41,742 nucleotides of DNA, taken from NCBI RefSeq assembly GCF_946478785.1, contig NZ_CAMLDD010000033.1, positions 1-41,742 on the forward strand. Reading direction: 5' to 3'. Both the position numbers and the translations under genes were made by a program. Below, piece by piece: positions 3,562 to 41,130 of this stretch. Within the stretch, counting starts at the first letter, position 1; the number at the start of each line of letters is the position of its first letter. A model generated the notes under the pieces. It saw only the letters and a program-made list of their open reading frames with translations, did no database searches and was not told where the DNA came from. Source of the DNA: an uncultured Flavobacterium sp. GTDB taxonomy: Bacteria; Bacteroidota; Bacteroidia; Flavobacteriales; Flavobacteriaceae.

Positions 3562-4476
3562 TTATCGTTTAACATACTTATCAAGAATATACTGAGTCAC
3601 TGGTCTTAAGGGTTTATTATTTTCTGGATGTCTGCCATGTTCATTAAAAAAGTCAACTCCATTTGCTGTCTTTGCGTACCAAATAATTGCCACACCATTA
3701 TTATCAAAACAGGCTGTGGTATCACAAACAGCAATCTTTTTTAAATTAAAAGCTGTTTCATCAAAAGGTTCAATTTTATTATAATTACCTATTCCTGTCA
3801 CTTCTAAATCACAACTCACTTTTTCATAATGATCAGTTGACCATTGCATGCATTGTTTTCTTTGTACAAAAAATATACAGGTAGAAAACAAAACTATAAA
3901 AAGCAGCAATAAAATCTGGTTTGATTTTTTTGAAAGTATTTCTGGCACCTTAGTTCTAAAACTAATTGGTTTAATATTTCCGTCAGCATTTTTTTCTGAG
4001 TTTATTTTTGCTTCTTCTCCACAACTGTCAAAACTCTTTTCAGTAATAATTTCTTCAGAAAACCCATTATCCTTCCCTAAATCTAAATTCAGTGAATCAA
4101 CTATGTTTTTTTCGTTCTCATTAAAAGAAATTTTTCTAAACTTATTATAAGGTCTTAAATTAAAATCTACTAAAATCGCAGCAAGATTTACCGCAACTTT
4201 ATCTGTCAAGTCTGTTTGGACTTTATAAAAAGTACCAATAGGTTTAAATCTGTCAGTATGTTCTCTAAATTGTTTTCTCTTGTTTGGATCAAATTCAAAT
4301 CCAAAAAAGGACTTAAAGGTAATTAGGTCATCAGGATTTTTATTTTTTTCAAATATTTCCCAACATAAATTTCTAAGATTAGCTTGTGAAGGATTAGGAA
4401 AATTATCTGCTGCAATCTCTATTTTATATTTTTCCTGAATAGCTTTTTTATAATCTTCAATAGTATAGTTCTGCAT
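3562..4476 (-). CDS. Unknown single-pass membrane protein
   Basis: A 304-residue protein I do not recognise. The N-terminal ~120 residues look like a cytoplasmic helical domain (KAIQEKYKIEIAADNFPNPS, then a repeated Phe-rich 'FKSFFGFEFDPNKRKQF'). An acidic linker follows, then one transmembrane helix (about 187-204, LLLLFIVLFSTCIFFV) and a C-terminal ~100-residue Cys-containing domain (CMQW, SCDL, CDTTACF) probably outside the membrane. The last part (VTQYILDKYVKR) is basic. It is transcribed toward 3426, where a terminator lies. A putative promoter with the TTACGGTTTTCC box about 180 bases upstream links it to the downstream two-component regulon, and its leader holds GGAATT repeats. Confidence 0.7.
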   Translation of the reverse strand: MQNYTIEDYKKAIQEKYKIEIAADNFPNPSQANLRNLCWEIFEKNKNPDDLITFKSFFGFEFDPNKRKQFREHTDRFKPIGTFYKVQTDLTDKVAVNLAAILVDFNLRPYNKFRKISFNENEKNIVDSLNLDLGKDNGFSEEIITEKSFDSCGEEAKINSEKNADGNIKPISFRTKVPEILSKKSNQILLLLFIVLFSTCIFFVQRKQCMQWSTDHYEKVSCDLEVTGIGNYNKIEPFDETAFNLKKIAVCDTTACFDNNGVAIIWYAKTANGVDFFNEHGRHPENNKPLRPVTQYILDKYVKR

Positions 4477-4624: not shown

Positions 4625-4668
4625 CAAATGTACAAAACTAGTTCAATTAAAAGTGCGGAAAACCGTAA
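4625..4668 (-). promoter_or_regulatory. Putative regulated promoter: TTACGGTTTTCC box plus TACATTTG
   Basis: On the minus strand TTACGGTTTTCCGC (4668-4655) is followed after 24 bases by TACATTTG (4632-4625), a match to the Bacteroidota -7 consensus TAnnTTTG. The box is a near-palindrome (TTACGG-N4-CCGCAC). The same box and nearly the same spacing occur at 7490 and 11042. The predicted transcript would lead into the gene starting at 4476. Confidence 0.6.
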
Positions 4669-4805: not shown

Positions 4806-4988
4806 ATGAAAAAATTATTTATATGGGGAGCGTTCGCTCTATTGACAACTACATTATTCTCTTGTACTGCTGATGAATCTGAAACAGTCGCAAAAAAAAC
4901 AGAAATAAAAAAAGATGTTATTCAGTCAGAGGGAGTGGCTCAAGGTCCTGACGATGATCCTGTACCTGTTACACCTCCAAGAAAATAG
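4806..4988 (+). CDS. Small lipoprotein upstream of a sensor kinase
   Basis: The ATG at 4806 gives a 60-residue product: lipoprotein signal peptide (MKKLFIWGAFALLTTTLFSC, Cys at 20), then about 40 hydrophilic residues ending in an acidic/proline tail (GPDDDPVPVTPPRK). The longer frame from 4734 runs through the inverted repeat and has no signal peptide at its start, so it is rejected. It lies 53 bases before the sensor kinase gene. I recall similar tiny lipoproteins at this position in other flavobacteria, but cannot verify it here. A role as accessory or ligand of the kinase is inference only. Confidence 0.7.
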   Translation: MKKLFIWGAFALLTTTLFSCTADESETVAKKTEIKKDVIQSEGVAQGPDDDPVPVTPPRK

Positions 4989-5041: not shown

Positions 5042-6739
5042 ATGTTACGATCCCCGATTTTTTGCTTGTTTTGCTTTCTAATTTTTATTTCTTGCGAAGA
5101 GAAGACAACTACCCCTTTTAAGCCAAGTTTACATAAAAAGGAGGGCAAACTTTTACAGCAAAATGCCATGGTTCATTTTCAAAAAAGTAACTATAATAGT
5201 GCTTTTTATTACTTCAATAAGTCCAAAATACTATTTGAGACATCTAAAGACAGTGCCAATATTGTTTTCAATTTAATTCAAATGGCCAACATTCAACAAA
5301 TAAATGGTGATTACTATGGAAGCAAGGAAACTTTAACAGAGGCATTACCGTACAGCAAAAATGATAATAATTATATTGTTGCAATTAATAATTTCTTCGG
5401 AATTGCTGATAAAGAACTTTCTATTTATAATGATGCCATTTTTTATTATAAGCAAGCCATAAATTCCGCAAAGGATTCAATTTCAATACAATCTCCCTTA
5501 AACAATATTGCAGTTGTTTATATCAAACAAAAAAAATACGATAAGGCAATTGAGATTTTGGAATCTATTCTAAATAAAAAAATTTTAGATAATAAATCAT
5601 CCTTAAAAACTAAACCAAGAGTAATTGACAATCTTGGTTTTGCTTATTTTAAAAAAGGAATGAATAATAAGGGGCTTCAACTCTTAAATGAAGGTCTGAA
5701 ATTAAGAATACAATCCAATGATAACTACGGAAGCATTGGGAGTTACCTTCACCTGGCTGAATTTTTCTCAGAAACTGATCTTCAAAAATCAAATGAATAT
5801 GCTGAAAAAGCTTATGAAAAAGCAACTCAATTTAACAGTATCGATGAACGTTTGAAAGCCTTATCTTTTTTAATCTCAAATGGATCAGGAACAGCGTATG
5901 CACAAAAGTACATTACTTTGAATGACAGCATAACTAAAATCCGCAACAACTACAAAAACAAGTTTGCCAAAATAAAATACGACTCTAAAAAGGAAAAGGA
6001 CGAAAATCAAAAACTCCGTTTAGAAAAAGCTGAGGATTTATTGTCTCTCCAGGAAGCAAAATATCAACGAATATTTTTTATAATCGGAATTGCATCCCTT
6101 TGTCTTTTATTATTGTACTTAAGAAAATTTTATCAAAACCGAAACCGAATCGAAAAAATAAAAACAGCCTACGATACCGAAACCAAAATCGCCAAAGACC
6201 TTCACGATGAACTCGCAAATGATGTTTTTAATGCTATCACTTTTACTCAAACACAATCGTTAGAAAGTAAAAACAGGAAAGAAACCTTAATTCAAAAACT
6301 GGATCATATATACACACGTGTCCGTAGAATTTCGAGAGAGAATAATGATATCCATACTGGAGAAAATTATTCGGACAACTTAAAAGAAATGCTGTCAACA
6401 TATAATACCGACCAGACAAATGTTATTATTAAAATCGATGAAATCAATTGGAACGATATCGATGAAATTAAAAAGGTTACCATTTACCGTGTTTTACAAG
6501 AATTAATGGTAAACATGAAAAAACATAGTCAGGCTTTGCTAGTAGTTATAAAATTTGACATCAGCTCAAAAAAAATATTTATTGACTATACGGATAACGG
6601 AAAAGGATGTGACAAAAACAAAATTATAAAAAATGGCCTGCAAAATATGGAAAACCGTATTCTGTCTACAAAAGGAACTATTACTTTTGAAACTGAACCT
6701 GATAAAGGTTTTAAAGTAAAAATAACAATGCCCAAATAA
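5042..6739 (+). CDS. TPR-containing sensor histidine kinase
   Basis: A 565-residue protein. The N-terminus is a lipoprotein-type signal (FLIFISCEE, Cys about 18). Residues ~36-290 are tetratricopeptide-like helical repeats, probably periplasmic. A coiled coil follows (~300-343) and then one transmembrane helix (~344-362). The cytoplasmic part has a HisKA_3-type dimerisation helix with phospho-acceptor His388 in DLHDELANDVF, an N box near 487-498 (LQELMVNMKKH) and a G1 box DNGKGCD at ~518, closing with a GHKL ATPase end. HisKA_3 kinases pair with NarL/LuxR regulators, and exactly such a gene follows after 6 bases. The stimulus is unknown; an envelope signal sensed through the TPR domain is likely. 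Confidence 0.92.
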   Translation: MLRSPIFCLFCFLIFISCEEKTTTPFKPSLHKKEGKLLQQNAMVHFQKSNYNSAFYYFNKSKILFETSKDSANIVFNLIQMANIQQINGDYYGSKETLTEALPYSKNDNNYIVAINNFFGIADKELSIYNDAIFYYKQAINSAKDSISIQSPLNNIAVVYIKQKKYDKAIEILESILNKKILDNKSSLKTKPRVIDNLGFAYFKKGMNNKGLQLLNEGLKLRIQSNDNYGSIGSYLHLAEFFSETDLQKSNEYAEKAYEKATQFNSIDERLKALSFLISNGSGTAYAQKYITLNDSITKIRNNYKNKFAKIKYDSKKEKDENQKLRLEKAEDLLSLQEAKYQRIFFIIGIASLCLLLLYLRKFYQNRNRIEKIKTAYDTETKIAKDLHDELANDVFNAITFTQTQSLESKNRKETLIQKLDHIYTRVRRISRENNDIHTGENYSDNLKEMLSTYNTDQTNVIIKIDEINWNDIDEIKKVTIYRVLQELMVNMKKHSQALLVVIKFDISSKKIFIDYTDNGKGCDKNKIIKNGLQNMENRILSTKGTITFETEPDKGFKVKITMPK

Positions 6740-6745
6740 AAGCCT

Positions 6746-7414
6746 ATGTTTAAAAAAGTAATAATAGCCGAAGATATTGACTCGATGAATTTAGGAATTC
6801 AACAAGTCTTAAAAGATTTGAACATTGTCGATTTTCAGCATTCCAAATTTTGTGATGAAGCATTTCTAAAAATCCGTGCCGCAATTCATCAAAATGAACC
6901 TTACGATTTACTAATCAGTGATCTTTCGTTTAAAACCGATCATCGAAAGGCAACTATTGCCAATGGCGATGAGCTGGTTCAAAAGGTTCGCACATTACAG
7001 CCTGACATTAAAATCATCGCCTATTCTGTAGAAGATAAAAGTTACCGAATTAAATCACTCTTTGACCATGCAGGAATAGATGGTTTTGTCTCCAAAGGTC
7101 TTAACAGTATCGAAGAATTAAAGAAAGCGATTCATCTTATTTCGACTTCTGATCAAAAATACATTTCGCCTGAAGTTGCATCTGCTTTGCAGGAAAAAAA
7201 CAACTACGAAATTGACGATGTAGATATTCAAATTCTAAAACATTTGTCTTTGGGGACTTCTCAGGATGAAATTATAGAAATATTTAAAACCTCAGATATC
7301 AGGCCAAACAGCAAAAGCGCCATCGAAAAAAGACTGGCGAAACTCAAAGACTTTTTTAAGGCAAATAATACCGTGCATTTGGTTTCTATTACTAAGGATA
7401 TGGGGATTATTTAA
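6746..7414 (+). CDS. NarL/LuxR-type response regulator
   Basis: A 222-residue two-domain regulator. The receiver domain (1-~130) has the acidic pair E9/D10, phospho-acceptor Asp59 in LLISDL, Ser94 at the switch position (AYSVED) and Lys117 (FVSKG). The C-terminal ~65 residues form a divergent GerE/LuxR helix-turn-helix ('DVDIQILKHLSLGTSQDEI', then 'NSKSAIEKRLAKLKDFF'). It starts 6 bases after the kinase stop, so the pair is one operon. GerE regulators bind short inverted repeats as dimers. The TTAYGG-N4-CCGTAA box found in three surrounding promoters is the natural candidate site. Confidence 0.92.
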   Translation: MFKKVIIAEDIDSMNLGIQQVLKDLNIVDFQHSKFCDEAFLKIRAAIHQNEPYDLLISDLSFKTDHRKATIANGDELVQKVRTLQPDIKIIAYSVEDKSYRIKSLFDHAGIDGFVSKGLNSIEELKKAIHLISTSDQKYISPEVASALQEKNNYEIDDVDIQILKHLSLGTSQDEIIEIFKTSDIRPNSKSAIEKRLAKLKDFFKANNTVHLVSITKDMGII

Positions 7415-7489: not shown

Positions 7490-7534
7490 TTATGGTTTTC
7501 CGTAAAATACTGGTTTCAAATAGGTTTAAGTTTG
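7490..7534 (+). promoter_or_regulatory. Putative regulated promoter: TTATGGTTTTCCGTAA box plus TAAGTTTG
   Basis: The palindrome TTATGG-TTTT-CCGTAA (7490-7505) is followed by the -7 element TAAGTTTG (7527-7534). The box centre is 36.5 bases from the end of the -7 element, exactly the same as at 11042-11086. That puts the box centre near -43, the class II activator position. No good -33 TTG is evident, as expected for an activator-dependent promoter. Confidence 0.65.
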
Positions 7535-7576: not shown

Positions 7577-7783
7577 ATGAAAAACTATTATGTAAATAAC
7601 ACCGCTCAATTAAACGGAGATCATGAAGTCCATACTGACGACTGTCCTTACTTTAAAAATATTATAAGCAAGAAATACTTAGGTGTTTTTTCCAGCTGTA
7701 AACCTGCAGTAGATGAAGCTAAAAAAACATACTCAAAATCCAATGGTTGTAAAACGTGTTGTAATGCCTGCCACACAACTTAA
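7577..7783 (+). CDS. Small Cys/His-rich protein, putative metal-binding
   Basis: The ATG at 7577 gives 68 residues. The earlier TTG at 7532 lies inside the -7 element of the promoter and is rejected. The sequence has a patterned set of ligands: HEVHTDDC, then SSCKPAVDEAKK, then GCKTCCNACH. That is His and six or seven cysteines in an arrangement like small zinc- or Ada-type binding modules. It is the first gene of the box-controlled operon; DUF4236 begins 2 bases after its stop. No function is known to me. The gene in 13106-13315 encodes another small H/C-patterned protein. Confidence 0.75.
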   Translation: MKNYYVNNTAQLNGDHEVHTDDCPYFKNIISKKYLGVFSSCKPAVDEAKKTYSKSNGCKTCCNACHTT

Positions 7784-7785
7784 TC

Positions 7786-8016
7786 ATGGGTTTTCGATTT
7801 CAAAAAAGAATTAGACTTGGAGGCGGACTTGGATTAAACATTAGTAAATCCGGAATTTCTCCAAGTCTTAGAACCAAAATGGGAACATTTAGTAAAAATG
7901 GTTATTCTACCAAAACCGGTATACCCGGATTAAGATACCAAAGCAGCGGGTGTCTTGTAATATTTACTTTTACAGGCCTTCTTACATTTTTAATTTTCAC
8001 AATAATACATTTATAA
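7786..8016 (+). CDS. DUF4236 domain protein with C-terminal membrane helix
   Basis: A 76-residue protein. The opening MGFRFQKRIRLGGGLGLNIS with 'KSGISPSLRTKMGTFS' and 'GIPGLRY' is the DUF4236 signature: short glycine-rich strands of unknown function found in many phyla, often in small membrane-linked proteins. The C-terminal 20 residues (LVIFTFTGLLTFLIFTIIHL) are a membrane helix. It is spaced 2 bases from the genes on both sides, so translation is probably coupled. Function unknown. Confidence 0.88.
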   Translation: MGFRFQKRIRLGGGLGLNISKSGISPSLRTKMGTFSKNGYSTKTGIPGLRYQSSGCLVIFTFTGLLTFLIFTIIHL

Positions 8017-8018
8017 CT

Positions 8019-8354
8019 ATGGGATATCGAAAAGGATATTACAGAAAAGACGGAACTTATGTTCAGGGGCATTATGCCAATAACAGATCTAAGTCTTTTT
8101 CAACTAAAAACAATAATGGATGCCTAATTCTGATTTTATTTTTTACCGCAATTAGCTCAATTATTTCGTGTTCAGAATCTTCAGATTCAGTTGAGAAAGC
8201 TTCAAATCCGGATTCAAACTCCAATTGTCCAACTAAAACTTGTGGAGATTTTACAAGTCGGTCTCAAGCACAAGCAACTTATGACAGTAACAAAAGCTGT
8301 TATAAAAACTTAGATGCTGACGGGGATGGAATCGTATGTGAATCTTTAAAATAA
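8019..8354 (+). CDS. Excalibur-domain (calcium-binding-like) protein
   Basis: The ATG at 8019, two bases after the DUF4236 stop, gives 111 residues; a longer frame back to 7950 overlaps the previous gene and is unlikely. The N-terminus is basic and Gly/Tyr rich (MGYRKGYYRKDGTYVQGHY), a short segment seen before other domains in Bacteroidota. A hydrophobic segment (~34-50) ends in a Ser-Cys that could be a membrane anchor. The C-terminus (70-110) is an excalibur domain: two cysteine pairs and the calcium-loop-like DADGDGIVCE. Such domains occur on extracellular nucleases and surface proteins. Confidence 0.85.
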   Translation: MGYRKGYYRKDGTYVQGHYANNRSKSFSTKNNNGCLILILFFTAISSIISCSESSDSVEKASNPDSNSNCPTKTCGDFTSRSQAQATYDSNKSCYKNLDADGDGIVCESLK

Positions 8355-8371
8355 ATAAACAACTACCAACC

Positions 8372-8767
8372 ATGATTACACTAGAACTTAAAAGCCACTT
8401 TTTGAGATTATATCAAATGGCATTATCAGATGATCAATTTAATGTATTGGAGCTTCAAATGCTTTATCATTTTGCAGATGAAAGAGGAATTCCAAAAGAG
8501 GAACTTGATAAACTTTTCCTCAATCCTGTCAGCATTGAATTCACTGTTCCTGAAAACTTAAATACAAAAATTGAATACTTATATGATCTGACCAGAATTA
8601 TCTGGGCTGATGAAAAAATAACCGATGACGAATTAAATATGCTCCGAAAGTATTGCCGGAAATTTGATTTCGTTGAAGAAAACATCAATGATTTATCTGA
8701 TTATCTTATTGACTGTGTTCAGAAAAACATTGGTAAAGAAGAAATTATTAGTCAACTAAACGCTTAA
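8372..8767 (+). CDS. TerB-like protein
   Basis: A 131-residue all-helical acidic protein. Two halves repeat the TerB pattern: a helix, then an acidic 'D..(F/I)...EL..L......' loop (LSDDQFNVLELQMLYHFADERG, and WADEKITDDELNMLRKYC). TerB domains bind divalent metal through such acidic clusters and, in the Ter stress systems described by Aravind and co-workers, act at the membrane together with VWA proteins. A VWA-like lipoprotein is encoded two genes downstream. It is followed after 3 bases by the membrane protein gene. Exact partner and stimulus unknown. Confidence 0.75.
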   Translation: MITLELKSHFLRLYQMALSDDQFNVLELQMLYHFADERGIPKEELDKLFLNPVSIEFTVPENLNTKIEYLYDLTRIIWADEKITDDELNMLRKYCRKFDFVEENINDLSDYLIDCVQKNIGKEEIISQLNA

Positions 8768-8770
8768 ACT

Positions 8771-10039
8771 ATGAAAACACTTTCTCAATTATTTAGTTTA
8801 AAAAAACCTGAAGATTCTTCTTTTAAATTTTTGGAAGAAAATGAAGAAGACAGAGAACAAATCAGAATTACATATTACCAAAGTGGATTTGCAGCATCTG
8901 TAAAAGCAACAGGAAAACCAATTGTTTTAAAAGCATGCCTTCAAAATTTATATATGAGTTTTGAAGATCAGTGCCGAAAACAAAAAATGGAACAAGACCG
9001 ATTAAAACAGCCTTACCGCGAAGAACAGGAAAAGAACCGAACTGAACTTAAAAAGTCTGAAACTGCTATTAGTATTTTTGAAAAAAAAGAACAGGATATC
9101 AACGATAATATCGACGAGATCAGAAACGAAATTATCGACGTCAGACGTAATCCTGACAAATACGGCATCGAAGATGGCAAAGGTTTAAAAGCACAATTTT
9201 ACATCGGTTTGTTTTTACTGCTTCCTATTACACTCTACGTATTAGTCTTTTATATTTCGGCCTCGTATTCTGCTTTTTTCAAAGAATTTTCAAATGATAG
9301 TTTAACAGCTGCCATATTTGATGCAGATGCTTTTACAAATGCTTTTAAAGCAAGCTGGCTTGAAGGTGTTCTCGTGGTAACAATCCCCTTTGTATTTATG
9401 GGACTAGGTTATGTAATTCATATGGTTCAAAAAGGAAAAGGCGTAAAAAATATTTTAAGAATGATGTCCTTATTTGTTATCACCTTTTTATTTGATGCTT
9501 TACTGGCTTATCAAATCGAAAAAAAGATATATGAATTTAATAAAACAACAGATTCTGCTCCATACAATTTAAACATCGCCTTGGGTGAGGCCGAATTTTG
9601 GATGATCATATTTGCAGGATTTGTGGTTTACATAATCTGGGGACTTGTATTTGATTTTGTCATGAAAGAATTTGAAAATATTGATAAGATAAGAGCTTTC
9701 ATCAGAGGAAAAAAAGAGAGTTTAATTAATCTGGAGAAAATAAAAGCAGATTATATCAATAAAATCAACGATTTCAAACAACAGATTGTTACCCTAAACG
9801 GAAAAAATTCAGAACTGCAATCAAAAATAGATGGTTTTGTTTTTCCGGTAAAAGAATATCTGCATTACCATCATCAATACAAAGAAGGATGGTTTCAGGC
9901 TATAAATACAGAAATCGCTTTGGCTCATAAAGAAAAAACAGAACTTCTGGAAAGCTGTGAATTTCATTCTGAAGAGCACCTCAACAAATTAAACTTAGTC
10001 GATCCTGATTTTCAACATTTGGTATATTCTAAAAACTAA
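8771..10039 (+). CDS. Four-helix coiled-coil membrane protein, unknown
   Basis: A 422-residue protein of no family I can name. A soluble N-terminal ~60 residues is followed by a long charged coiled coil (~65-130). Four transmembrane helices follow (about 143-165, 198-219, 229-249 and 274-296). A second coiled coil (~303-350) leads into a C-terminal region with a His/Tyr cluster (EYLHYHHQYKEGW). The symmetric coil-membrane-coil layout suggests an oligomeric scaffold. It is encoded between the TerB-like and VWA-like genes with gaps of 3 and 4 bases, so the three products are probably a complex at the inner membrane. Confidence 0.75.
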   Translation: MKTLSQLFSLKKPEDSSFKFLEENEEDREQIRITYYQSGFAASVKATGKPIVLKACLQNLYMSFEDQCRKQKMEQDRLKQPYREEQEKNRTELKKSETAISIFEKKEQDINDNIDEIRNEIIDVRRNPDKYGIEDGKGLKAQFYIGLFLLLPITLYVLVFYISASYSAFFKEFSNDSLTAAIFDADAFTNAFKASWLEGVLVVTIPFVFMGLGYVIHMVQKGKGVKNILRMMSLFVITFLFDALLAYQIEKKIYEFNKTTDSAPYNLNIALGEAEFWMIIFAGFVVYIIWGLVFDFVMKEFENIDKIRAFIRGKKESLINLEKIKADYINKINDFKQQIVTLNGKNSELQSKIDGFVFPVKEYLHYHHQYKEGWFQAINTEIALAHKEKTELLESCEFHSEEHLNKLNLVDPDFQHLVYSKN

Positions 10040-10043
10040 TTAA

Positions 10044-10946
10044 ATGAAAAATATTTTACAAAAAGTAGTACTGTCATTAGTATTGATTTCTATTTTTTCG
10101 TGTAAGGAAGACAGCAAAAATGAAGAAAAAGAAATCGTACTTAAAAAAAATACTGCTTCAGAAAACTACAATATCAGTATTCTTATTGATTTGTCAGATC
10201 GAATTAGCCTCAAAAAGAATCCAAATCCAACAATGGAATTTTATCAAAGAGATTTAGGCTATATTAAATCGGTTTCAGAAGCTTTTACCCAACATCTAAA
10301 ATCAAAAAGAATAAGGCAGATTGATGATAAAATACAGCTATTTTTTAATCCGGAACCGGAAAGTCCTGAAATAAATTCGATTGCAAATGAATTAAAAATT
10401 AAAGTTGATAAAGATAATGCCTCAAAAGATTTACTGAACTCGATAAGCGGTAATTATGCTTCAAAAACAGCAAAAATATACAATTCGGCAATTAAGGATG
10501 ATAACTATATCGGATCTGATATTTGGAACTTTTTCGACAGCAAAATACAAGATCAATGCATTGATAAAGGGTATAGAAACATTCTAATTATTTTGACGGA
10601 CGGTTATATGTTTTACGAAGGAACCCAAATCAAGAACGGCAATTTATCAAGCTATTTAACTCCAAAATTAATTCAGCAAAATAATCTAAATACAAACGAC
10701 TGGCTGAAAAAATTTGAAAGTAAAAATTTTGGTTTTATTAAAATTCATAACGACTTATCAAATCTTGAGGTTTTAGTTCTTGGCATAAATCCAAGTAAAA
10801 ATAATCCTTATGAAGAAAAAGTCATCAAAGCCTATTGGAGCAAATGGCTGACAGACATGAACATCAAACATTTTGAAATCAAAAGTGCTGATCTGCCTTC
10901 GAATATGGATAAAATTATTAAAGATTTTATTTTAAATAAAGAATAG
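10044..10946 (+). CDS. VWA-like lipoprotein
   Basis: A 300-residue protein with a lipoprotein signal (LVLISIFSC, Cys20). From residue ~43 it has a von Willebrand A-type fold: strand YNISILIDL with metal-site-like D49-L-S-D-R, where the usual DxSxS is changed to DLSDR, and a later strand RNILIILTDGY (Asp186, Gly187). Because the second serine of the metal site is replaced, metal binding may be weak or altered. It is the last gene of the operon and is followed by a terminator. With TerB and a membrane scaffold it resembles a Ter-like envelope stress module; this is inference. Confidence 0.78.
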   Translation: MKNILQKVVLSLVLISIFSCKEDSKNEEKEIVLKKNTASENYNISILIDLSDRISLKKNPNPTMEFYQRDLGYIKSVSEAFTQHLKSKRIRQIDDKIQLFFNPEPESPEINSIANELKIKVDKDNASKDLLNSISGNYASKTAKIYNSAIKDDNYIGSDIWNFFDSKIQDQCIDKGYRNILIILTDGYMFYEGTQIKNGNLSSYLTPKLIQQNNLNTNDWLKKFESKNFGFIKIHNDLSNLEVLVLGINPSKNNPYEEKVIKAYWSKWLTDMNIKHFEIKSADLPSNMDKIIKDFILNKE

Positions 10947-10968
10947 TAATTCACAAAAAAACAATTTA

Positions 10969-10995
10969 AAAGAGGAACTCTATCATCCTCTTTTT
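10969..10995 (+). terminator. Intrinsic terminator of the TerB/VWA operon
   Basis: AAAGAGGA and TCCTCTTT form an 8-bp stem with a 9-base loop and a T-rich 3' end, 22 bases after the VWA-like gene. Confidence 0.75.
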
Positions 10996-11041
10996 CTATT
11001 TATAAAAGTTTCATAAACTTCACTCAAAAAACTTCATCTCT

Positions 11042-11086
11042 TTACGGTTTTCCATAAAATATTGATTATTATTGGTTTTACATTTG
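11042..11086 (+). promoter_or_regulatory. Putative regulated promoter: TTACGGTTTTCCATAA box plus TACATTTG
   Basis: TTACGG-TTTT-CCATAA (11042-11057) and the -7 element TACATTTG (11079-11086) stand at exactly the spacing of the 7490 promoter. The transcript would start about 20 bases before the nuclease gene at 11112. Confidence 0.65.
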
Positions 11087-11111
11087 AATTATTAATCTAA
11101 ACTAAAAACCA

Positions 11112-12167
11112 ATGGAAATAAATATTCAACTTAAATCATTAGCCGATAAAATCAATCAGCTAAAAAGCAGAATAGAAACCGAAGAATCTACAAAACATGC
11201 TTTTGTATTGCCTTTTATACACGTTCTGGGATACGATGCTTTTAATCCGCTTGAAGTTGTTCCCGAATTTACAGCAGATCTTGGCCTTAAAAAAGGAGAA
11301 AAAGTAGATTATGCGATCTTTCAAAACGGAGAACCCATTATTATTGTTGAATGCAAAAGCTGGAAAGAAAAACTGACTGTTCATAATTCACAGTTATTCC
11401 GCTATTTTCATGTTACCAAAACACGATTTGCGCTTTTGACAAATGGCATCAATTACCAGTTTTTTACTGATTTGGATGATCAGAACAAAATGGACGAAAA
11501 ACCTTTTTTGGAATTTGATATCTGTAATCTAAAAGAAAATACAATCAACGAAATAGCGAAATTTCATAAAGCCAATTTCGATGTAGACAATATTGTAAGC
11601 AATGCCAGTTCTTTAAAATACATTAAGGAAATCAAAAAACAAATTAACGCAGAGCTGGAAAGTCCTTCGAATGATTTTACAAAACTTTTTGCAAATAAAG
11701 TATACACCGGCAGACTTACTGAAAAAGTGGTGGATGAGTTTAAAGATTTAGTTCAGAAATCAGTAAGTCAATATATTAATGATAAAATTAATGACCGGTT
11801 AAATGCCGCGCTGACCAAAGAAACAATAAAACAGCAGGTCGAAGAAACTGTAATAGTCGAAGATGACAATAAAATTAATACAACAGAAGAAGAACTTGAT
11901 GCTTATCGTATCGTAGTGGCAATTTTACGCAGAAAATTACCAACCAGCAGAATCGTACATCGTGATACACAATCTTATTTCGGAATCTTATTGGATGATA
12001 ACAATCGTAAGCCTTTATGCAGAATGCATTTAAACGGAGGCAAAAAGTACATTAGTTTATTCAATGAAAATAAGAGCGAAACCAAATTACCCATTTCATC
12101 CATTGACGATATTTATCAATTTGAGAAGGAATTATTAGAAACAGCAGCACTTTATGAAATCGGATAG
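11112..12167 (+). CDS. Orphan HsdR N-terminal-type PD-(D/E)XK nuclease
   Basis: A 351-residue protein. The N-terminal ~150 residues match the type I restriction HsdR N-terminal nuclease domain: 'FVLPFIHVLGYDAFNP', then Asp66 (KVDYAIF), then Glu80-Cys-Lys82 (IIIVECKSW), a complete D-x13-E-x-K active site. 'TKTRFALLTNGINYQFFTD' follows, also typical. A helical linker (~190-255) joins a C-terminal domain (DAYRIVVAILRR...YFGILLDDNNRKPLCRMHL) often seen with stand-alone members. There is no methylase, specificity or helicase gene nearby, so this is not a classical restriction system. It carries the same box-controlled promoter as the TerB/VWA operon. Confidence 0.88.
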   Translation: MEINIQLKSLADKINQLKSRIETEESTKHAFVLPFIHVLGYDAFNPLEVVPEFTADLGLKKGEKVDYAIFQNGEPIIIVECKSWKEKLTVHNSQLFRYFHVTKTRFALLTNGINYQFFTDLDDQNKMDEKPFLEFDICNLKENTINEIAKFHKANFDVDNIVSNASSLKYIKEIKKQINAELESPSNDFTKLFANKVYTGRLTEKVVDEFKDLVQKSVSQYINDKINDRLNAALTKETIKQQVEETVIVEDDNKINTTEEELDAYRIVVAILRRKLPTSRIVHRDTQSYFGILLDDNNRKPLCRMHLNGGKKYISLFNENKSETKLPISSIDDIYQFEKELLETAALYEIG

Positions 12168-12281: not shown

Positions 12282-12653
12282 ATGAAAACAAAATACTATG
12301 TAATTATTGGTCTTTGCGTATTTACATTAATCACAGCATTAACAAATCCCGGAACTGAGAAACATAAGGAAGAAGTCAAATTAAAAATGAACATATTTCT
12401 TGAAAAACAAATGAATGAAAAAAACACAAATCAAAATGACGAGTGGTCTAAAGCTGGAAATGCAATGGGAAATGCCTTGGCAAAATCAATGATAAACATG
12501 ATGGTAGACAATATGGTTTCCTCATCTGATTATGTTCTTTTTTCAACAACAAATGTAACTTTCGAAGGAAAAACAAAAACAATTGGTATTGGCATTTTGG
12601 GAAACATTTTTTTATCTGGTAAAATTGATGAAGCAATGAATCAGGAAAAATAA
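12282..12653 (+). CDS. Small membrane-anchored protein, possibly DUF4359-like
   Basis: A 123-residue protein with one N-terminal membrane helix (YVIIGLCVFTLITALTNPG) and a soluble part. The 'TNP' directly after the helix and the late 'DYVLFSTTNVTFEGKTKTIGIGILGNIF' resemble DUF4359 proteins, but I hold this assignment only moderately. It starts 114 bases after the nuclease gene with no clear terminator between, and is followed after 34 bases by a lipoprotein gene. It may belong to the same stress locus. Function unknown. Confidence 0.6.
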   Translation: MKTKYYVIIGLCVFTLITALTNPGTEKHKEEVKLKMNIFLEKQMNEKNTNQNDEWSKAGNAMGNALAKSMINMMVDNMVSSSDYVLFSTTNVTFEGKTKTIGIGILGNIFLSGKIDEAMNQEK

Positions 12654-12687: not shown

Positions 12688-13095
12688 ATGCTAAAAAACT
12701 ACTTAATCTTAGCTATAACATTCGTAACACTTTCTTGTAAAAAAGCAGAAGCTCCTACACCAGAAATTAATGCATTTTATAAGGAAGTAATTACTTCGGA
12801 TGACCGAAAATCGATCACTCCGGAAGAAGCTAAAACCTATCATATAGATAAAACTCATCAATACGAATACAGAACAGGAAATTCCGGGCATTATGAATAT
12901 AATTATGATGTAAAAGGTGTAAATATTAAAGGCGATTCGGTTTTTGGGAATATAAACGTAGAGGGGAAATGCGGTGCCGGAATTTTAATGTGTGACAGCC
13001 TTTCAGATACTGAAATTAATACCGAATGGATTTCCTATGGAAAGCTAAAAGCGACTGATAAAAAAGGAAATGAGTATCAATTAATTGTCAAATAA
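12688..13095 (+). CDS. Lipoprotein of unknown function
   Basis: A 135-residue protein with signal peptide and lipobox (ITFVTLSC, Cys17), an acidic helical segment (TSDDRKSITPEEAKTYHID) and a short beta-rich domain with 'YEYRTGNSGHYEYNYDVKG', 'GKCGAGIL' and two further residues typical of a small OB-like fold (ISYGKLKATDKKGNEYQLIV). The two cysteines in KCGAGILMC could form a disulfide. I do not recognise the family. It lies between two other small envelope genes in the same direction. Confidence 0.6.
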   Translation: MLKNYLILAITFVTLSCKKAEAPTPEINAFYKEVITSDDRKSITPEEAKTYHIDKTHQYEYRTGNSGHYEYNYDVKGVNIKGDSVFGNINVEGKCGAGILMCDSLSDTEINTEWISYGKLKATDKKGNEYQLIVK

Positions 13096-13105
13096 AATTC
13101 CACGA

Positions 13106-13315
13106 ATGAAATATACTTTACTCCTGCTATTTATTTGTTTCTCTTCCTTTCGGCTATCGACCACCTATGTATATATATGCGGACCAACCGGTGCAAAAAA
13201 ATATCATTATAAAGAAAACTGTCGTGGCTTAACAGCTTGCCGACATGTAGTAACAAAAGTATCGCTTACGCAGGCGCAAGGATATGGACTAACACTTTGT
13301 GGATGGGAAGATTAA
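13106..13315 (+). CDS. Small secreted Cys/His-patterned protein
   Basis: The ATG at 13106 gives 69 residues with a signal peptide (MKYTLLLLFICFSSFRLS). The alternative start at 13085 overlaps the previous gene and lacks a signal start. The mature part has a clear pattern, 'YICGPTGAKKYHYKENCRGLTACRHVV.....A...G.TLCGWE', which I have seen in many small Bacteroidota proteins. The His/Cys spacing suggests metal binding, as in the small protein at 7577. Function unknown. Confidence 0.65.
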   Translation: MKYTLLLLFICFSSFRLSTTYVYICGPTGAKKYHYKENCRGLTACRHVVTKVSLTQAQGYGLTLCGWED

Positions 13316-23497: not shown

Positions 23498-23582
23498 GGA
23501 GCTAATTCCTGCTGCCCGTTTTATCTTTTATCGTCTCGTTAAAAAAAACGAGAGCATAAAAGAATGCCACTTCCATCATCTA
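23498..23582. repeat. REP-like hairpin element 2
   Basis: GGAGCTAATTCCTGCTG, then CTTTTAT/ATAAAAG and TCTCGTT/AACGAGA stems, then GAATGCCACTTCCATC. Left and right arms align with the element at 41051-41130 (GGAGCTNATTCCNGCTG, TTTATCTTTT, AAAAGNATGCC). Confidence 0.7.
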
Positions 23583-23639
23583 AGTGGTATAATTATTTAG
23601 TTAATCAGTTAGCCAATAAAACAGATAACCAATTAAACC

Positions 23640-29590: not shown

Positions 29591-31426
29591 TTAAAAAGAG
29601 ACATTCAAACCAAAATTGAATGACCACTGAAATTGATTAAAAGTTTGATTATTTAATGGATTGACATAATAGTTCATGCCTGGCTCAACAAAAACATGTG
29701 TTTTTTTGTATAAACGGTATTGAAAAGTACTGCTCAATAAGGAACCATAAACAAAGTCACTGGCATCTAAATTATCGCCAATTGAAGTGCCGTTTAACGT
29801 TACATTATTTGAAATCAATTTCCCCACAAATCCTCCCGTATTTAAACTAATACTAGTTTTGTCTTTATTGAAAAGCGCATAAGAAACTTCAAGGGGCATC
29901 TCAATATATTTTAAGCTCTGATCAATATTTCCGGTTTCGAAGTTACTGCTTTTTAAAGTGTTTTGTGTACTTTTTGAAACAAAAACATAACTGGAATTGT
30001 TTGCTATTGTTTGTTTAACGACAGTAGAATTTTGATTCAGGTAATCACTTGTACCCAGGAGTGAGGATGCAATATGGCTGGTACTGTAATAAGACACATT
30101 AGCAACGCTTTGCCCTAATTCGTTAATTTTTAAACCAGAACTTACAGCCCATTTTTTATTGAGCTTGTAATTTGTTTTTACTCCGTATGTATTGGTTTGC
30201 TTCGATTCATTAACATTGCCTAAAGTTTTTTGTTTACTATAATTTTCTGAATTTGCAATTCCCGCAAAAACTTCCAGCGACCACTTTTCTGAGTTTGAAA
30301 TGGATTTCTCCTCCTTGTCTTTTTCAGGTTTAACTTCAACAATTCCCTTTTCTAAATTTTGTAATACAGCCAACTGAACAGAATCTTGTGTGCTTAATGA
30401 ATTGGCAGCTATAGCATTGTTCTTTTGGATATTTTCTGCCAGGATTGATTCCGTTTTTACTGCTTCATTAGGAACTTCTTTTTCTAAAATCTGTTTATTA
30501 TTGTCTGAATTTGAAGAATTTAAAGCAATAGCATCATTGCTTTTCGAAACCAGTTTGTCTTCAAAAACAGAATTTGGCATCTGATTATCTGAAAAGGAAT
30601 TGAATGAATTCTTTTTTCCTAAGGTGAAAGTTTTCCCTGCTATAGATTGATTTGTATTTCTTTTTTCGGTTTGTAAAATTTGATTATCTGAAAAAGAATT
30701 GAATGAATTTTGTTTACCTCCAATAAATGTTTTTTCGGCTACAGCCTGATTTGCATTTCTTTTTTCAGTTTGTAAAATTTGATTATCTGAAAAAGAATTA
30801 AACGAATTTTGTTTACCTCCAATAAATGTTTTTTCGGCTACAGCCTGATTTGCATTTCTTTTTTCAGTTTGTAAAATTTGATTATCTGAAAAAGAATTAA
30901 ACGAATTTTGTTTACCTCCAATAAATGTTTTTTCGGCTACAGCCTGATTTGTATTTTCTGCAGCATTGTTAGATTTTTGATTAGAAACAGCTGAATTAAC
31001 TTTATTATCAGAATCAGTTTGAGTAATTGTTGTTCTGTATGTTTCGTTATTTTTAGAATTATCTGATTGGTTTGCAGGTGTTTCTACAGACAGATTTTCA
31101 ACACTGCCCGATTTTATTTTGGAGCTATTCTCTTCTGTAGATCTTGTTTTGTTATCTAAATCTTTCTTGTTTTCGTCAAGAACAACACTTTTTTCTATAG
31201 CTTGGATATTTACTGTTTCAATTCCTGAATCAGAATTAAAACGTAAAACAGAAGGAAGCAATAATCCTAATAAAAGGCATGCAGCAGCTGACCACCAAAG
31301 AATTACTCTTTTTTTCTTTTTAGGTTTATCAAGTTCCTCTTCAATTTTATTCCACAATTCGGGTGGTGGAATACTCGAAAAGTTTTCTATTGATGAAAAA
31401 ATATCTTCTATTTTCTGCTTCTTCAT
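29591..31426 (-). CDS. Envelope-spanning protein with 33-residue repeats, sigma-factor partner
   Basis: A 611-residue protein. A cytoplasmic N-terminus of ~40 residues (DIFSSIENFSSIPPPELWNK) is followed by one membrane helix (~42-62). A long Asn/Ser/Lys/Glu-rich periplasmic linker includes three near-identical 33-residue repeats (160-258, NQAVAEKTFIGGKQNSFNSF...) plus a divergent fourth copy. The C-terminal ~220 residues (from 'WSLEVFAGIANSENYSKQ') look like an outer-membrane beta-barrel ending in FSFNFGLNVSF. It overlaps the ECF sigma gene by 4 bases, so an anti-sigma or signal-transducing role is likely, though it lacks a zinc or FecR motif. The barrel suggests it bridges both membranes. 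Confidence 0.78.
   Translation of the reverse strand: MKKQKIEDIFSSIENFSSIPPPELWNKIEEELDKPKKKKRVILWWSAAACLLLGLLLPSVLRFNSDSGIETVNIQAIEKSVVLDENKKDLDNKTRSTEENSSKIKSGSVENLSVETPANQSDNSKNNETYRTTITQTDSDNKVNSAVSNQKSNNAAENTNQAVAEKTFIGGKQNSFNSFSDNQILQTEKRNANQAVAEKTFIGGKQNSFNSFSDNQILQTEKRNANQAVAEKTFIGGKQNSFNSFSDNQILQTEKRNTNQSIAGKTFTLGKKNSFNSFSDNQMPNSVFEDKLVSKSNDAIALNSSNSDNNKQILEKEVPNEAVKTESILAENIQKNNAIAANSLSTQDSVQLAVLQNLEKGIVEVKPEKDKEEKSISNSEKWSLEVFAGIANSENYSKQKTLGNVNESKQTNTYGVKTNYKLNKKWAVSSGLKINELGQSVANVSYYSTSHIASSLLGTSDYLNQNSTVVKQTIANNSSYVFVSKSTQNTLKSSNFETGNIDQSLKYIEMPLEVSYALFNKDKTSISLNTGGFVGKLISNNVTLNGTSIGDNLDASDFVYGSLLSSTFQYRLYKKTHVFVEPGMNYYVNPLNNQTFNQFQWSFNFGLNVSF
30575..30949 (-). repeat. 99-bp in-frame tandem repeat, 3 near-identical copies plus one divergent
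   Basis: Within the membrane protein gene, units of 99 bp (33 codons) at about 30851-30949, 30752-30850 and 30653-30751 differ by only a few bases. A fourth unit (30575-30652) is truncated and diverged. The near identity points to recent expansion and probable copy-number variation between strains. Confidence 0.88.
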
Positions 31427-31974
31427 GCTGTTTTAAAATTTTTAATACTCAAAATCCTTTTTTGTAAAATTCGTTTGGCCCTGTTTAAATTTGATTTAGA
31501 AGTTCCTTCTGAAATTTTGAGCTGTTCCGCAATCTCTTTATGCTTCATTTTTTCAAAAACATATAAGTTAAAAACCATGCGGTATTGATCTGGTAATTCT
31601 CTGATATATTCGAGTAACTTTTCTTGTGCTATCGGAATAATTTCTAATTCCTCCTCTTCTACAAAATCGGTATCAGGATCAAAAACATCCAAAAAGAAAC
31701 TTTCTTTTCTTTTCTTATTTAATGTTTCGATTAGCTTATTGATAAAGATTCGTTTTAACCATCCTTCAAAACTGCCTTCGAATCTATACTGATGGATTTT
31801 TTGAAAAACAATAACAAACGCCTCCTGAAAAACATCCTTGGCATCGTCTTCATTTTTCATATACTTTAAACAAATACCATATAAAACAGGCGAGAACAAC
31901 TGATAAATTTTCAGTTGTCCTGCCCTGTCATTCTGTATACATTGTTTAATATATATGTCTAAATCGTCTTTCAA
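31423..31974 (-). CDS. ECF-type RNA polymerase sigma factor
   Basis: A 183-residue sigma-70 factor with region 2 (LYGICLKYMKNEDDAKDVFQ, 'FEGSFEGWLKRIFINKLI') and region 4 (LPDQYRMVFNLYVFEKMKHK, then 'EIAEQLKISEGTSKSNLNRAKRIL'). The frame must begin with TTG at 31974, since no ATG precedes Met39. A TAnnTTTG element (TATTTTTG, 32004-31997) sits suitably upstream. The stop overlaps the start of the repeat-containing membrane protein gene by 4 bases, typical of a sigma/anti-sigma pair. The regulon is unknown. Confidence 0.92.
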   Translation of the reverse strand: MKDDLDIYIKQCIQNDRAGQLKIYQLFSPVLYGICLKYMKNEDDAKDVFQEAFVIVFQKIHQYRFEGSFEGWLKRIFINKLIETLNKKRKESFFLDVFDPDTDFVEEEELEIIPIAQEKLLEYIRELPDQYRMVFNLYVFEKMKHKEIAEQLKISEGTSKSNLNRAKRILQKRILSIKNFKTA

Positions 31975-41050: not shown

Positions 41051-41130
41051 AGGAGCTTATTCCAGCTGTACACTTTATCTTTTGTGGCGAACCCCGCCAC
41101 AAAAGGATGCCGTTCCCATCTGGGCTAGGG
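41051..41130. repeat. REP-like hairpin element 3
   Basis: GGAGCTTATTCCAGCTG, then a perfect 11-bp stem CTTTTGTGGCG/CGCCACAAAAG (41079-41089, 41095-41105; loop AACCC), then GATGCCGTTCCCATC and GGGCTAGGG. Same family as 23498-23582. It may terminate the SDR transcript. Confidence 0.75.

Follow-up and report, generated by a model that had tools for sequence, protein, structure and literature searches.

A TerB, coiled-coil membrane protein and VWA lipoprotein module shares a promoter box with a stand-alone HsdR-N nuclease and is linked to a two-component system in Flavobacterium

We report here a locus in a 41,742-nt stretch of DNA from an uncultured Flavobacterium sp. (NZ_CAMLDD010000033.1; the whole stretch is called the window below). 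A TerB-like protein, a 422-aa coiled-coil membrane protein at 8771..10039 that we label MEM, and a VWA-fold lipoprotein make up a membrane module that is conserved and linked to a regulator, and that has a co-regulated nuclease; this much is well supported. We lean slightly towards reading the whole as a two-component-controlled, envelope-sensing nuclease/defence regulon. The window was combined with 74 related loci, chiefly from Flavobacterium and also from Arenibacter, Aquimarina, Pedobacter, Olivibacter, Halpernia and Kaistella, into a set of 75 loci, and the regulon was analysed in the genomes of these relatives. Presence counts in this set come from clustering of open reading frames (ORFs), and tblastn detects some additional members; Pfam and PADLOC scans of the window covered the ten proteins between 5042 and 12653. 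The features that carry the argument are the following.

5042..6739, + strand: TPR histidine kinase with an N-terminal lipobox-like signal (by eye)
6746..7414, + strand: response regulator (Response_reg 32.9 bits, cut-off 30.2)
7491..7534, + strand: promoter box TATGGTTTTCCGTA, 22 nt, TAAGTTTG, before the TerB operon
7577..7783, + strand: small Cys/His-rich protein without a Pfam match; cluster in 26/75 loci
7786..8016, + strand: DUF4236 protein (Pfam 41.1 bits); cluster in 37/75 loci
8019..8354, + strand: Excalibur-domain protein (Pfam 24.0 bits, cut-off 22); cluster in 52/75 loci
8372..8767, + strand: TerB-like protein (Pfam 25.5 bits, cut-off 24.4, in the C-terminal half)
8771..10039, + strand: MEM, four predicted transmembrane helices between two long coiled coils
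10044..10946, + strand: VWA-fold lipoprotein with invariant DLSDR and DGY
11043..11086, + strand: promoter box TACGGTTTTCCATA, 22 nt, TACATTTG, before the nuclease
11112..12167, + strand: stand-alone HsdR-N PD-(D/E)XK nuclease, 351 aa (HSDR_N 54.6 bits)

A preliminary description of this DNA had proposed six tightly packed genes between 7577 and 10946, and all six frames are open and stand in the order claimed. The conserved unit within them is TerB, MEM and VWA, whose clusters are each present, and in this order, in 75/75 loci; both partners thus accompany MEM throughout the set, as the description had expected of its homologues. The three genes are direct neighbours in 74/75 loci, and in L045 MEM reads as two frames. 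The MEM frame is short in L061 (352 aa), a locus excluded from the MEM alignments. TerB is split into two adjacent frames in L086/L102, by a broken gene or an assembly error, as for MEM in L045 and L061. In a phylum sample of 296 genomes MEM was matched in 18, with VWA adjoining in 17 and TerB in 13; the eighteenth match is an 80-aa frame, and the centre and at least five others of the 18 are genomes already in the 75-locus set. A genus sample of 150 genomes gave MEM matches in 20. In L088-L091, the most distant of the full loci, MEM and VWA occur without TerB, and the same holds in the larger stretches L097-L100 (L098 being only 5.7 kb). TerB, presented earlier as a core component, holds that position in all close loci and is missing from the most distant relatives.

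One tie between the module and the nuclease is a promoter box, TACGG-N4-CCGTA, followed after 21-22 nt by TAnnTTTG, which we take to be the -7 element of Bacteroidota promoters. A scan of both strands of the 74 related loci, with two mismatches at most and kinase-coding sequence included, gave 276 box-like 14-mers, with TAnnTTTG 22 nt downstream in 140 and 21 nt downstream in 31; the other offsets were 14 nt in 26, 13 nt in 25 and at most 11 cases each for the rest. When box and TAnnTTTG at 21-22 nt were required together, again with up to two mismatches, the box lay between the regulator and MEM, that is, before the TerB operon, in 69/75 loci (antisense control 1/75), the loci without it being L048, L061, L062, L063, L070 and L074. 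It was present within 250 nt of the HsdR-N gene in 32/36 loci (antisense 0/36) and within 350 nt of W3, a membrane protein gene divergent from the kinase operon, in 56/73 (antisense 0/73). The shared box is thus real at both genes for which it was first described, and it reaches far outside the region then considered. Among distant loci, L093, L094 and L102 have the box at zero to two mismatches and L095 and L096 only at three, all five with kinase and regulator present; in L097-L100 we saw no box and neither kinase nor regulator. A 14-mer at 6646-6659 (- strand) in the kinase gene was rejected as an operator. Together with 77 similar hits inside kinase genes it is a coding coincidence, because these sites encode a conserved MENRI-like peptide, and it is a trap for motif scans.

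Induction by a two-component system had also been suggested, and clusters of the linked kinase and regulator are present in 72/75 and 71/75 loci. The kinase matches TPR_12 with 49.2 bits, over cut-off, and HATPase_c (25.2 bits) and HisKA_3 (15.1 bits) below the Pfam cut-off; its match to the NCBIfam UhpB model has an E value of 7.7e-18, yet is far below the cut-off of that model. Residues H388, N491, G520 and G522 are conserved in at least 97% of 72 kinases. Similarly, D10, D59 and K117 are conserved in at least 97% of 71 regulators; the regulator of the window has a receiver domain with the phospho-acceptor Asp (D59) and, in the C-terminal region, a weak likeness to DUF5932, below cut-off. 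The exact box occurs in 57/79 genomes of the genus sample with a relative of the regulator (E 1e-20) versus 5/71 without, in a table made from hand-compiled lists for which the Fisher p value of 3e-17 overstates the association because the genomes are related. The exact 14-mer has 120 occurrences in the 150 genomes versus 9 for the reversed pattern, and the regulator is present in all 20 MEM genomes of this sample. Among 27 hand-picked sites of the 120, 25 are on the same contig as a listed regulator gene and 12 are within 140 nt of it. A second regulator, about 50% identical to the one of this locus, accompanies it in many genomes. In L149 and the second loci of G001 and G301, this paralogous regulator is followed by the box and then by a DNase I-like gene whose start looks signal-like; these loci are a second unit with the same logic.

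The nuclease is intact, as described, with D66, E80 and K82 of the D-x13-E-x-K motif invariant in 38 sequences. A full-length frame is present in 36/75 loci including the window, so that the gene is far from confined to this stretch; L022 and L038 have HsdR-N fragments detected by tblastn. Only HSDR_N and HSDR_N_2 were over cut-off in this protein, with no R-subunit helicase domain, the Pfam scan of the ten window proteins found neither HsdM nor HsdS, and the nuclease has no apparent signal peptide. Its proposed tie to the membrane module holds through the common box and, in the distant loci L095 and L102, through gene order, since the nuclease there is co-directional with the module and in the same gene run. 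In L102 a mismatch-free box precedes a run of HsdR-N, a PH-type protein, TerB, MEM and VWA.

MEM and the VWA protein have no Pfam family over cut-off, in agreement with the placing of the middle protein outside known families. The AlphaFold2 (AF2) model of MEM (predicted local distance difference test score, pLDDT, 81; predicted template-modelling score, pTM, 0.50) has a helix at 50-126, helices at 139-169, 196-220 and 225-257, and a long helix at 274-353. A loop rich in lysine joins the second membrane helix to the third, which suggests a cytoplasmic position for both coiled coils. A fold search with MEM gave matches of coiled-coil type, none at E 0.001 or better; PDB sequence searches returned coiled coils for the MEM alignment and nothing for the VWA and TerB alignments. 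The MEM family comprises 1665 relatives at E 0.001, and MEM of the window is 96% identical to a protein listed under the name F. chungangense. Many database entries carry the name 'ABC transporter permease', which we reject for MEM because Pfam shows no such domain. No MEM was found in the phage collection, and plasmids gave one partial match (Runella, 28%).

The VWA protein has a lipobox Cys at position 20 in at least 97% of 75 sequences and a VWA fold by structure prediction. DLSDR, located after the first strand of this fold, presumably where a metal ion-dependent adhesion site (MIDAS) sits, is identical in every row of three alignments (20, 11 and 32 rows), and so is DGY, with the preceding T in all but one sequence. 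The canonical, TerY-like MIDAS motif DxSxS is replaced by DLSDR in all 20 and all 11 sequences of two of these alignments. The reported change to DLSDR is therefore real, with the amendment that the altered site is invariant across the family. We rejected a degraded metal site because DLSDR is invariant and on a predicted VWA fold; judged from these alignments, a conserved site of another kind, for a metal or a ligand, is likelier than decay.

The box also occurs outside the locus. A scan of 12 genomes gave 66 sites with box and promoter element (up to two mismatches) versus 4 for the reversed pattern. Sorted by eye, 17 sites in these genomes with up to one mismatch are non-core. Eight of these stand before two DNase I-like genes, two copies of a five-gene AAA operon, McrBC, an AAA_15 ATPase, a GHKL ATPase and a type III restriction-modification pair (ResIII 54.4 bits, N6_N4_Mtase 161.8 bits). 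We looked for the same families in a held-out set of 40 other genomes, which are not independent because all are MEM carriers from the list that gave the related loci and nearly all are Flavobacterium. The DNase I-like gene is present in 34/40, and in 24 of 30 loci examined a box with two mismatches at most lies no more than 700 nt away (antisense 0/30, reversed 0, shuffles 0/1500). The five-gene AAA operon, present in three held-out genomes, has the box in 3/3 (1, 1 and 3 mismatches). McrBC is present in 13, with a box upstream in 3 against about 0.06 expected, a hand estimate from the site density in the 12 genomes; in L219 the box lies about 1 kb upstream of the ORF as called, and in L220 an 841-aa frame separates the two. 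Elsewhere, L137 (G301) has a protein kinase gene with a two-mismatch box upstream, and three near-identical box-like sites lie about 9-10 kb apart at G304:C13 155158, 164984 and 173511.

A conserved gene that we call the leader is present in 13 held-out genomes at 14 loci, with the box in 8/14 at up to two mismatches and 11/14 at up to three (antisense 1, reversed 0). With two discovery loci added there are 16, two of them cut by contig ends, leaving 14 informative loci. Defence-type Pfam or PADLOC matches occur in the cargo of 7/14:

L147: McrBC
L160: AAA_15
L246: putAbiC
L247: PDDEXK_4/PDC-S26
L250: TIR-AAA and ThsB-like TIR
L253: PLD with NgoFVII-type
L258: PD-Lambda-4_B, no box found

The remaining leader loci have unplaced proteins, or short frames that we take for transposases. 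Stretches beside the regulator in MEM-negative genomes have defence-type genes in 4/14:

L280: HsdR-N and a PLD protein
L292: AAA_15 with OLD-like TOPRIM
L291: TIR and AAA_15, with exact boxes and no element at 22 nt
L289: short DNase I-like frame

Around the core, the window has the following neighbours.

3562..4476, - strand: W3, 304-aa putative membrane protein divergent from the kinase operon, no Pfam match at 0.01; cluster in 73/75 loci
4625..4667, - strand: promoter box upstream of W3, spacing 21
4806..4988, + strand: small putative lipoprotein before the kinase; cluster in 60/75 loci
12282..12653, + strand: DUF4359 protein (Pfam 34.2 bits, cut-off 27); cluster in 4/75 loci
12688..13095, + strand: Lip, conserved putative lipoprotein without a Pfam match; cluster in 56/75 loci
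13106..13315, + strand: W17, small secreted-looking Cys/His protein; cluster in 60/75 loci

Near the module in Olivibacter (L064/L168), a box is followed by W17, a similar small Cys/His protein and Cas9, the last 1.4 kb from the box, and in L074 a W17-like stretch (by eye) follows an SNase domain (72.5 bits). Farther along the window are two matches to the Flavo-1 RNA family (RF01705), at 41055-41130 (- strand) and 23501-23592 (- strand), the second barely over the gathering score. A protein at 29591-31426 (- strand) contains a near-identical stretch of about 33 residues several times over, and a sigma-factor-like gene at 31423-31974 adjoins it (both by eye).

From gene order, the box and its spacing, its co-occurrence with the regulator and the intact catalytic residues, all read from sequence, we infer the following mechanism. 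The TPR sensor kinase and response regulator (5042-7414) would watch the cell envelope, and the activated regulator would bind TACGG-N4-CCGTA directly, 21-22 nt before TAnnTTTG, switching its targets on rather than repressing them. These targets would be a complex at the membrane, made up of TerB in the cytoplasm, MEM in the inner membrane with its long coiled coils in the cytoplasm, the VWA lipoprotein outside the cytoplasm and small accessory proteins; the HsdR-N nuclease; and W3. Relatives would use this operator for a secreted DNase I-like enzyme and, depending on the strain, for restriction or defence genes, with the leader-gene promoter as a possible entry point for variable cargo. The likely purpose would be to protect the envelope and increase the capacity to cut DNA when the envelope is disturbed, through phage adsorption or another attack. 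The preliminary reading, a two-component-induced module acting with a nuclease, is thus upheld in its conserved unit, shared box and linked two-component system, and as a whole is partly supported. That the regulon is an immune one is plausible, with the balance about even. The fuller version, a dedicated Bacteroidota immune regulon of TPR kinase/regulator, one fixed-geometry operator, membrane complex, cytoplasmic and secreted nucleases and defence genes captured behind a leader landing pad, is a tentative proposal that falls somewhat short of even.

Several observations weigh against an envelope-sensing defence regulon. The locus retains recurring flanking genes in many Flavobacterium, unlike typical defence islands. 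Nine of the 17 non-core sites have only hypothetical proteins or nothing behind them, 10/13 held-out McrBC loci, the weakest held-out test, lack the box, and so do 3/14 held-out leader loci. The strongest held-out test, that of the DNase I-like gene, concerns a neighbour of the paralogous regulator: in the genomes compared, the second regulator of about 50% identity is directly before the DNase I-like operon, and targets cannot be assigned to one regulator because the paralogue shares the box. The exact box is also present in 43/59 regulator-positive, MEM-negative genomes and is therefore not specific to the TerB-MEM-VWA module. Matches to PADLOC at 1e-10 covered 51 families over 39 box-downstream proteins versus 41 over 100 random ORFs, one of which is itself behind a two-mismatch box, so that counting matches leaves enrichment unproven. 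The putative association with defence rests on named families re-found at the exact spacing.

The recurring surroundings of the locus also fit a general envelope or metal stress response, in which TerB-MEM-VWA would repair or stabilize the envelope, the nucleases would handle extracellular or damaged DNA, in scavenging or in attack on competitors, and defence genes would simply have borrowed an inducible promoter. Numerous targets are small proteins that look secreted or lipoprotein-like, there are DNase I-like and SNase genes, and TerB is associated with tellurite and stress loci. This explanation is unlikely but deserves to be taken seriously; it sits poorly with the recurrence, as a partner, of an HsdR-N nuclease that has no apparent signal peptide and has the box in 32/36 loci, and with restriction and TIR genes behind boxes. 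It is less probable that the box is a generic site of the regulator subfamily, used for unrelated functions, and that nearness to defence genes reflects nothing but hotspot geography. Consistent with such a site are the many MEM-negative genomes with a box and the PADLOC counts without clear enrichment, as are L135, L143 and L148, where two-mismatch variants at the same spacing precede large secreted-looking, surface-like proteins and perhaps belong to another regulator of the same family; against it, the held-out genomes yield the same gene families again, with the box at its exact spacing. A stand-alone anti-phage system of membrane sensor and nuclease effector, its level merely set by the kinase, is very improbable: the nuclease is within the gene run in L095 and L102 and its catalytic residues are invariant in 38 sequences, but 39/75 loci lack a full-length nuclease frame and the ten window proteins match PADLOC 2.0.0 only weakly (best 21.6 bits).

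Ter-dependent stress response systems, reportedly set out by Anantharaman, Iyer and Aravind in 2012, are said to combine TerB and a VWA protein with linked genes for DNA processing. The locus described here shares these three elements with Ter systems and differs in having an unclassified coiled-coil membrane protein as partner, a lipoprotein with DLSDR as its VWA protein and, as the preliminary description had remarked, no Pfam match to TerC or TerD among the ten window proteins, to which that scan was confined within the 75 loci. The nuclease resembles stand-alone HSDR_N proteins in its domain and intact D-x13-E-x-K; compared with a type I restriction R-subunit, it is box-driven and without a helicase domain, HsdM or HsdS (ten window proteins). 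TerB is not named in the main text of two Aravind-group papers (PMC10853773, PMC12839542). Serratia offers a known case of CRISPR control by a two-component system (PMC8450108), and in Riemerella such control has been suggested (PMC5399024). In Serratia, CRISPR-Cas is under Rcs and GacAS-type (PigWQ/Rsm) control (PMC8450108), so that there too the expression of defence genes depends on a two-component or envelope-stress pathway, but control runs via RsmA/RsmB or the Rcs phosphorelay, whereas here a fixed-spacing operator precedes several nuclease and defence genes in Bacteroidota. Deletion of the two-component system RAYM_RS09735/RS09740 in Riemerella anatipestifer, a related bacterium, altered cas9, cas1 and cas2 expression; the pair is described as PhoP/PhoR-like, and the main text of that paper has no mention of TPR (PMC5399024). 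In the records that our literature searches listed, neither this operon nor its operator or regulon is described.

In conclusion, few cases are known in which a sensor system controls anti-phage genes. An operator that can be read from sequence would allow co-induced nucleases and defence genes to be predicted in many Bacteroidota and would make the coupling of envelope sensing to DNA defence testable. The analysis also supplies a context for the large MEM family, whose members often go by a transporter name.

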